From assembly GCF_014132155.1 (NCBI RefSeq), contig NZ_BLJQ01000001.1:434001-498000 (forward strand): a DNA stretch of 64,000 nucleotides. The letters run 5' to 3'. Shown piece by piece: positions 34,551 through 35,492 of the stretch (its first letter is position 1; every line of letters begins with the position of its first letter). This DNA comes from Gluconobacter sp. Gdi (GTDB lineage Bacteria; Pseudomonadota; Alphaproteobacteria; Acetobacterales; Acetobacteraceae). Both the position numbers and the translations under genes were made by a program. The notes beneath the pieces were generated by a model, which did no database searches, was not told the origin of the DNA, and worked only from the letters and a program-made list of their open reading frames with translations.

Positions 34551-34580
34551 CTTGCATAGAAAGCCTGCTCCACCATATCC
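34551..34580 (+). promoter_or_regulatory. Candidate heat-shock (sigma-32) promoter of hsp20
   Basis: CTTGCA (34551-34556), a 14-base spacer and CACCATAT (34571-34578) resemble the sigma-32 consensus CTTGAA and CCCCATNT (5/6 and 6 of the 7 defined positions). A sigma-70 reading of the same bases (TTGCAT with TATCCT) is also possible. The leader to hsp20 would be about 65 nt. Confidence 0.5.
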
Positions 34581-34612
34581 TAGGGTCACGTCAGATGCCT
34601 CATGGAGGGTCT

Positions 34613-34651
34613 GGTTCCCGCTGTCTCGCTCATGGAGGAGGCTCTAGCCCT
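34613..34651 (+). promoter_or_regulatory. ROSE-like RNA thermometer hairpin covering the hsp20 ribosome site
   Basis: The Shine-Dalgarno GAGGAG (34635-34640) can pair with CTCGCTC (34625-34631) across a three-base loop, leaving one G (34628) bulged. The anti-Shine-Dalgarno strand contains UCGCU, the U(U/C)GCU signature of ROSE elements that repress small heat-shock genes in alphaproteobacteria at low temperature. An outer stem (GGTT 34613-34616 with AGCC 34646-34649) closes it. The pairing was worked out by hand. Confidence 0.6.
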
Positions 34652-35164
34652 ATGTCCGGTCGCTTGTTTACATCCCCGATGTTCCTTGGTTTTGATCATC
34701 TTGAGCAGATGCTCGAGCGTGCCTCCAAGTCTACGTCAGACGGTTACCCACCTTACAACATCGAGCAGCTAAGTCAGACGGCGCTCCGGATTACCCTGGC
34801 TGTAGCCGGGTTCGTGATGGATGACCTTCAGATCACGCAGGAAGACAACCAGCTGGTGATCCGTGGACGTCAGACCGATGATAGCCAGGGACGGATCTTT
34901 CTGCATCGTGGTATTGCTGCACGGCAGTTCCATAAGGCGTTTGTTCTGGCTGAAGGCATAGAGATTGGCGGGGCATGGCTTGATAATGGCCTGCTTCATA
35001 TCGATCTTCTGCGTCCGGAGCCTGAAGTTCGTGTCAAACGGATTGCTATCACGCAAGGACGGCGGACTGGCGGAACCCCGCAGACGGTTCAGCACGAAGT
35101 GGTCCCGCCTGTGGTCAAGACAGCCCGGCGCACCCGGCCTGTGCGGGAACTCGACGACGAGTAA
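34652..35164 (+). CDS. Small heat-shock protein, Hsp20 family
   Basis: A 170-residue ATP-independent holdase chaperone. An N-terminal arm (FTSPMFLGFDHLEQMLERAS), then the alpha-crystallin domain (about 30-125): YNIEQLSQTALRITLAVAGF, LQITQEDNQLVIRGRQ, FLHRGIAARQFHKAFVLAEG, and LDNGLLHIDLLRPEPE. The C-terminal tail is basic and carries PVVKTARRTRPVRELDDE. ATG 34652 is preceded at ten bases by AGGAGG. It is under a probable heat-shock promoter and thermometer. Confidence 0.92.
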   Translation: MSGRLFTSPMFLGFDHLEQMLERASKSTSDGYPPYNIEQLSQTALRITLAVAGFVMDDLQITQEDNQLVIRGRQTDDSQGRIFLHRGIAARQFHKAFVLAEGIEIGGAWLDNGLLHIDLLRPEPEVRVKRIAITQGRRTGGTPQTVQHEVVPPVVKTARRTRPVRELDDE

Positions 35165-35240: not shown

Positions 35241-35492
35241 TTGAACAACCCGTTCGAAAACAGTGATGGGCACGAAGACGTACTCCCCGCAGATCTGAGG
35301 CGGATCACGGGGCCGCAGCTTCGGACGCTGGGGATGTCCCAGCTGGCCTATGTCAAATCAGTGCTGCATGACGGCGAGCTGATGGTGGCAATTCACGCCG
35401 CTGACGGCACGCCCATGGCAGTTGCCGAAGATGAGGAGAGCGCCATGGACGCAATCCTCGAACATGAATTGATTCCTACTCTTCTTCAGTAA
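35241..35492 (+). CDS. DUF1150 family protein
   Basis: An 83-residue protein of the DUF1150 family, a small alphaproteobacterial family commonly encoded beside hsp20; its role is unknown. Core: LRTLGMSQLAYVKSVLHDGE and IHAADGTPMAVAEDEESAMD. The start is TTG 35241: AAGGA (35229-35233) is seven bases upstream. The ATG at 35236 is in another frame and only makes Met-Asn-stop, overlapping the TTG. Confidence 0.85.
   Translation: MNNPFENSDGHEDVLPADLRRITGPQLRTLGMSQLAYVKSVLHDGELMVAIHAADGTPMAVAEDEESAMDAILEHELIPTLLQ

Follow-up and report, generated by a model that had tools for sequence, protein, structure and literature searches.

A putative compact two-hairpin ROSE-like RNA thermometer in the leader of a Gluconobacter hsp20 gene

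ROSE-like elements are defined by a U(U/C)GCU motif that is imperfectly paired with the Shine-Dalgarno (SD) sequence, with a predicted bulged G (PMC11342760). They regulate genes of small heat-shock proteins (sHsp) and, in their classical form, consist of three to four hairpins, while the ROSE-like leaders of Pseudomonas ibpA genes have two hairpins in 61-62 nt (PMC3669281). For alpha- and gamma-proteobacterial ROSE elements lengths from 60 to more than 100 nt and two to four stem-loops were given in 2023 (PMC10474464). Among acetic acid bacteria, Gluconobacter oxydans 621H was listed with one Rfam ROSE of 84 nt located before the Hsp20 gene GOX_RS07835 (PMC5756330).

We analyzed a 64,000-nt stretch of Gluconobacter sp. 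Gdi DNA (the window), in which an hsp20 gene is preceded by a short leader with a motif of this kind. Of the described systems, the short ROSE-like leaders of Pseudomonas ibpA come closest (PMC3669281). Common to both are two hairpins in a short leader (61-62 nt in Pseudomonas, about 67 nt inferred here, close to the about 65 nt of an earlier sequence-only reading that had called the leader compact), a sigma-32 promoter (a candidate in our case), U(U/C)GCU lying over the SD, and an sHsp gene downstream. The predicted energy of the SD-containing hairpin II of the window, -7.1 kcal/mol, is inside the thermosensing range of -4.1 to -7.6 kcal/mol given for Pseudomonas (PMC3669281). A compact form is not new as a kind, since published ROSE elements start at 60 nt and two stem-loops (PMC10474464). 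The locus differs from Pseudomonas, in a comparison with the published description, in that hairpin I contains a conserved bulged G, the motif reads UCGCU or CCGCU and so forms no U-G pair there, and an alphaproteobacterial sHsp gene followed by a DUF1150 gene lies downstream.

Like elements of Rfam RF00435 (ROSE, classical type), the window element lies in an sHsp leader. Aligned to a family member, RF00435 has CC/GG after the bulged G of its first hairpin, the architecture of hairpin I, and UU[G]CUC over GAGGA in its last one. This alignment indicates that hairpins I and II correspond to the first and last hairpins of RF00435, whereas neither its middle hairpin nor the long lower stem of its sensor hairpin is present here, leaving two hairpins and not the classical three to four. 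RF01832 (ROSE_2, the E. coli ibpA type) is the same kind of element in front of the same gene family. With ROSE-G elements the leader shares a bulged G in the anti-SD strand, but ROSE-G has CUGCU and two opposed bulged Gs, whereas in the window the bulge is in the anti-SD strand only (PMC12857270). Beyond the Rfam entry in PMC5756330, no account of this leader from any acetic acid bacterium appeared among the matches listed by our search, which lay mostly outside the subscription literature. The combination of RNA thermometer and Acetobacteraceae likewise returned nothing in the literature searched; an earlier listing of the element is possible.

The hsp20 locus and its two hairpins

The hsp20 gene (34652..35164, plus strand, start codon ATG at 34652) codes for an IbpA/B-like small heat-shock protein of 170 aa (PF00011, E 1.6e-14). 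The NCBIfam IbpA profile matches it with an E of 6e-33, below the profile's curated cut-off, and the nearest named relative, from Gluconobacter thailandicus, is 96% identical. A DUF1150 gene (35241..35492, plus strand, PF06620) lies 3′ of hsp20, likely on the same transcript. A connection of DUF1150 to the chaperone looks worth testing.

The pattern CTTG-N18-CCATAT at 34551..34578 (plus strand) constitutes a candidate promoter of the heat-shock sigma factor RpoH, a label that follows the RpoH consensus. The pattern was present in 92 of 121 leaders of the family, compared with 13 of 2420 shuffled upstream regions. If used, it would place the transcript start near 34585 and define a 5′ leader of about 67 nt (34585..34651, plus strand). 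The divergent peptide deformylase gene def (minus strand) has its longest-frame start at ATG 34557, which the candidate promoter overlaps; a def start further in, at about 34485, is possible.

The minimum-energy fold of the leader 34585-34651 consists of two hairpins (-19.7 kcal/mol). The second one contains the hairpin seen in the sequence-only reading, which exists: CTCGCTC at 34625-34631 folds on GAGGAG at 34635-34640 across the three-base loop ATG (34632-34634) with one bulged G. The stem is two pairs longer than had been read, being extended by U34624-G34641 and G34623-C34642. Hairpin II (34623..34642, plus strand) thus has 8 bp formed by the anti-SD strand GUCUCGCUC (34623-34631) and GAGGAGGC (34635-34642), with loop AUG and with G34628 bulged in the anti-SD strand. 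The SD sequence of hsp20, GAGGAGG (34635..34641, plus strand), ends 10 bases 5′ of the ATG. The UCGCU at 34626-34630, correctly recognized earlier as the ROSE signature, is paired with AGGA (34636-34639). Upstream, fold and covariation reveal hairpin I (34591..34614, plus strand), which had been overlooked; its 10 pairs include two U-G pairs, G34597 is bulged, the loop is at 34602-34604, and the SD takes no part in it.

Taken alone, hairpin II is matched in stability by 6 of 200 dinucleotide shuffles and hairpin I by 20 of 200 shuffles, and the leader as a whole is no stabler than its shuffles (z +1.14, 175 of 200 at least as good). When at least 13 coding bases are added, competing folds appear and the pair probabilities of hairpin II range from 0.08 to 0.63 (20 to 60 C). 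Of 38 ORF starts in the window selected by a simple rule, six have an SD that is more buried at 30 C than that of hsp20; among the six is an upstream start in the hsp20 frame.

The expected hairpin was found in the minimum-energy fold of 34585-34651 but not in that of 34551-34670, where the SD is paired with 34562-34572. That this stretch, instead of the hairpin II strand, buries the SD is extremely unlikely. It is the reverse complement of the GGAGCAGG box located just before the divergent def ATG, so that the match is one of two SD-like boxes that face one another. The stretch also falls between the -35 and -10 elements of the candidate promoter and is not part of the transcript predicted from it. 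This pairing was rejected.

Conservation and covariation of the leader

Homologues of hsp20 were present in 195 of the 200 family genomes searched, and 122 of these genomes provided a set of 123 leaders, window included. The ROSE motif was found in 121 of the 123; the two leaders without it are that of a second gene copy in genome G110 and that of genome G146, where the start may be misplaced. All 8 pairs of hairpin II can form in 116 of the 121 leaders and 7 pairs in the other 5, compared with 8 pairs in 65 of 6050 trials in which random 9-mers from the same leaders were set against the SD region. By this comparison, hairpin II is beyond chance. The motif has the form UCGCU in 117 leaders and CCGCU in 4, and therefore no U-G pair is formed beside the bulge. 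The bulged G is present in all 121 anchored leaders, the search pattern itself having demanded a bulge. While the loop of hairpin II varies from 3 to 13 nt, both strands are nearly fixed, and substitutions in the anti-SD strand are nearly all exchanges of C and U facing G or A. Leader G164 has its top pair changed from C-G to G-C, and an out-of-family leader (L234) has, by eye, UU/AA at the base of the hairpin. The same pattern was observed in 77 of 80 public relatives; of the three misses, the UCGCU strand is visible by eye in L179 and L195 and absent in L201.

Over the 121 leaders the SD is unpaired with a mean probability of 0.084; shuffling the letters upstream of it raises this to 0.335, and 174 of 1210 such shuffles were at or under the value of their native leader. 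The core of hairpin II is missing from the minimum-energy fold of 24 of the 121. An exact pattern, TCTCGCTC-N2..8-GAGGAGG, had matches in 67 of the 200 genomes, a count that overlooks the GCUUCGCUC form and takes in chance matches elsewhere.

MAFFT alignments of the leaders displaced hairpin I in many rows, and RNAalifold run on such an alignment of 115 leaders returned 9 pairs only, 5 of them with double changes. Because of this displacement, counts were taken from sequence-anchored scripts and from model-fitted alignments, the latter being biased towards the structure since a model made them. One anchored script gave 84% paired cells versus 56% in shuffles (500 shuffles, maximum 60%), taking a wrong hairpin I in some rows, that of the window included. 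In a fitted alignment of 100 loci with 111 matches, of which a few are spurious second ones, covariation was 0.351, compared with 0.159 after shuffling (none of 500 shuffles reached 0.351) and at most 0.088 when slid. A stricter set of 92 matches yielded 0.387, versus 0.180 shuffled and at most 0.104 slid. The number of doubly changed pairs in this set, 6, was not above that in shuffles (mean 6.4); doubly changed cells numbered 143 versus 38.8. In 17 rows combining 14 out-of-family loci with 3 Gluconobacter loci, 96.4% of cells were paired and covariation was 0.402 versus 0.161 shuffled.

Hairpin I shows strong compensatory change, and hairpin II is almost invariant. In hairpin I, 96.3% of cells are paired and double changes occur in 6 of 9 pairs in the 111-match alignment, and in 5 of 8 main-helix pairs plus the outer pair in the 92-match set. 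Double changes in hairpin II affect 3 of 8 pairs (111 matches), none of 8 (92 matches) and 3 of 8 (17 rows). When the best-pairing hairpin was chosen in each leader, all 5 outer pairs of hairpin I were present in 93 of 121 leaders and at least 4 in 110. Even within Gluconobacter the stem is rewritten, from UCAGAU...GUCUGG in the window to GCCGGU...ACCGGC in G. vitians. The sequence-only reading had held that a lack of compensatory changes in homologous leaders would count against it; such changes are present, mostly in hairpin I. In six leaders (L051, L053, L054, L070, L073 and L116) hairpins I and II are separated by additional sequence, which on inspection by eye resembles a further hairpin rich in GC, as though these leaders were on the way to classical ROSE.

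The near-invariance of hairpin II exceeds what pairing alone requires, which would agree with the hairpins serving as a protein-binding platform: Hsp20 would repress its own leader as E. coli IbpA does, with titration of the protein by aggregates, and not melting, as the main switch. Self-repression of IbpA through the ibpA 5′UTR needs Arg93 (PMC10474464). The match of the window protein to the IbpA profile, residues 12-133 against profile positions 14-136, places position 93 at residue ~90-91, where an Arg is found (GIAARQ). This mapping, however, relies on the alignment ends only, self-repression is described for gamma-proteobacterial IbpA (PMC10474464), and near-invariance is also predicted by the SD together with the ROSE motif. 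We consider self-repression as the main switch unlikely; it may act together with a thermometer.

Predicted response of the leader to temperature

The leader fits the short ROSE-like definition, having the motif, the bulged G, an extra 5′ hairpin and a place in the 5′UTR of an sHsp gene (with the transcript start inferred). Its earlier assignment to the ROSE type stands as far as motif, bulge and conservation are concerned, but it is not an Rfam ROSE match and has two hairpins rather than one. Most likely, judging from sequence, predicted folds and conservation, the two hairpins make up a ROSE-like RNA thermometer of compact form. Support for the structure is strong, and translation would depend on heat. 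According to this scheme, RpoH would make the transcript, hairpin I would fold stably near its 5′ end, and GUCUCGCUC of hairpin II, weakened by the bulged G, would cover the SD in GAGGAGGC. At growth temperature the covered SD would not allow binding of the 30S subunit; upon heat shock hairpin II would open and Hsp20 would be made, the melting range and the translational control both being presumed.

Removal of the bulged G in silico changed the energy of the fold from -19.7 to -23.5 kcal/mol. Since the G is kept in the leaders (where the search pattern required it) although its removal stabilizes the fold, the weak point seems to be maintained. The predicted probability that the SD is unpaired in the window leader rises from 0.02 at 30 C to 0.08 at 50 C, and with 18 coding bases added it is flat near 0.21. 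Ten Rfam-positive ROSE leaders behaved nearly as flatly, with no sharp opening predicted either; software melting curves are therefore uninformative here.

A hairpin that is predicted to be stable and does not melt in software could also lower translation at every temperature, with dosage control as its role and with heat control exerted by RpoH only. Other observations speak for caution about a thermometer, and the first of them also for dosage control. A C-G pair replaces the U-G of many ROSE elements beside the bulge, and in P. putida induction fell to 1.7-fold when the U at that motif place was changed to C (PMC3669281). In our family 81 of 116 hairpins are stabler than the Pseudomonas range of -4.1 to -7.6 kcal/mol, the median being -8.3 kcal/mol. 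Published effects of deleting the bulged G are mixed: loss of the G is not always fatal to sensing, induction having been raised to 6.8-fold in P. putida, but it was cut to 1.4-fold in P. aeruginosa (PMC3669281), and heat induction of P. stuartii oppF was lowered (PMC11342760). Against dosage control stand these last two results and the retention of the destabilizing G in the leaders, and we regard it as very unlikely.

The leader gives acetic acid bacteria, for which heat tolerance matters in fermentation, a candidate thermometer that is widely conserved.

Two sHsp clades and the distribution of the element

A search of the whole window with Rfam at gathering score returned two tRNAs and no ROSE, and at E <= 10 the window leader gave three chance matches to eukaryotic families and no ROSE. 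Neither RF00435 nor RF01832, the Rfam ROSE families, matched in the window's own genome at E <= 10; at gathering score RF00435 matched 0 of 20 related short-element loci. Across the 200 family genomes RF00435 had matches at E <= 1 in 33, of which 21 were above the cut-off, and in the genus it exceeded the cut-off in 7 of 26 genomes. One match (G194, 27.9 bits, under the cut-off) is the leader of an orthologue of the window hsp20; the remaining listed matches fall elsewhere wherever the place of the orthologue was listed. The seven over-cut-off loci that were read, out of 10 such matches, precede another sHsp gene, 93-99% identical to the L134 copy, and at three loci under the cut-off no sHsp was seen.

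A tree of 32 proteins separated nine Rfam-ROSE genes, together with L001 and L246, from 21 short-element genes with support of 100/99; its branches are long and the tool warned of long-branch joins. One sequence, L138 (45 aa, wrong frame), was omitted by length. In the window's clade, all 8 family loci tested and 12 of the 13 tested outside the family have a DUF1150 homologue after the sHsp gene; in the other clade 0 of 5 tested loci do. The tree split, the DUF1150 distribution and the RF00435 loci together place the compact element with a second clade of sHsp genes. Judged from the loci read, the Rfam ROSE model covers only one of the two sHsp clades of the family.

Covariance models extended the comparison. 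Model R1, built from ten gapless family leaders, none of the window's genus, found 34590-34642 in the window with 21.6 bits (runner-up 10.3 bits), and in the window's own genome the leader was the best of 3 matches (E 0.128). Model R2, trained on the family with the window in its training set, matched 180 of 200 genomes of an order sample at E <= 1; the sample rows are all of this family, and the matches were counted without confirming an hsp20 leader for each. Among 289 alphaproteobacterial genomes R2 matched 46 at E <= 1, 4 of them from this family. Of the 27 out-of-family loci listed and examined, 14 lie directly 5′ of an hsp20 homologue, as do 9 of the 10 best. Thirteen of these 14 hsp20 loci resemble the window's clade, and L246 resembles the other one.

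We give about even chances to a broader interpretation, that this is a second, compact ROSE family present across Alphaproteobacteria, tied to one sHsp clade (the hsp20-DUF1150 operon), uncaught by Rfam ROSE and made of two hairpins each with one bulged G. Classical ROSE would then have grown from this minimal core by gaining middle hairpins, or else the compact form would have arisen by reduction in parallel. The UCGCU, which hardly varies, would make these elements open at a higher temperature than those with the UUGCU of many class-A paralogues. With two paralogous sHsp clades and two ROSE types, full and mostly UUGCU or compact and UCGCU, one can test whether the opening temperature is set by the letter next to the bulged G, and what role hairpin I has.

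The second hsp20 of the window's own genome (L001:1288-1390, class-A) has in its leader GGUCAUGAUGCCUUCGGGGUCAUGGCC, which is hairpin I-like, and CCUGCCUUGAGGAGG at the SD. It has no Rfam ROSE match and no R2 match at E <= 1, and is possibly a divergent or ROSE-G-like element. The length of the ROSE of G. oxydans 621H is that of the class-A copies, so it probably precedes that paralogue. The class-A hsp20 genes at L256-L262 and L134, whose Rfam ROSE leader is 84 nt long, are 93-99% identical between Gluconobacter and another genus, and their loci often have a second weak ROSE match ~3 kb off in the opposite direction. These loci look like a shared, perhaps mobile, heat-shock island.
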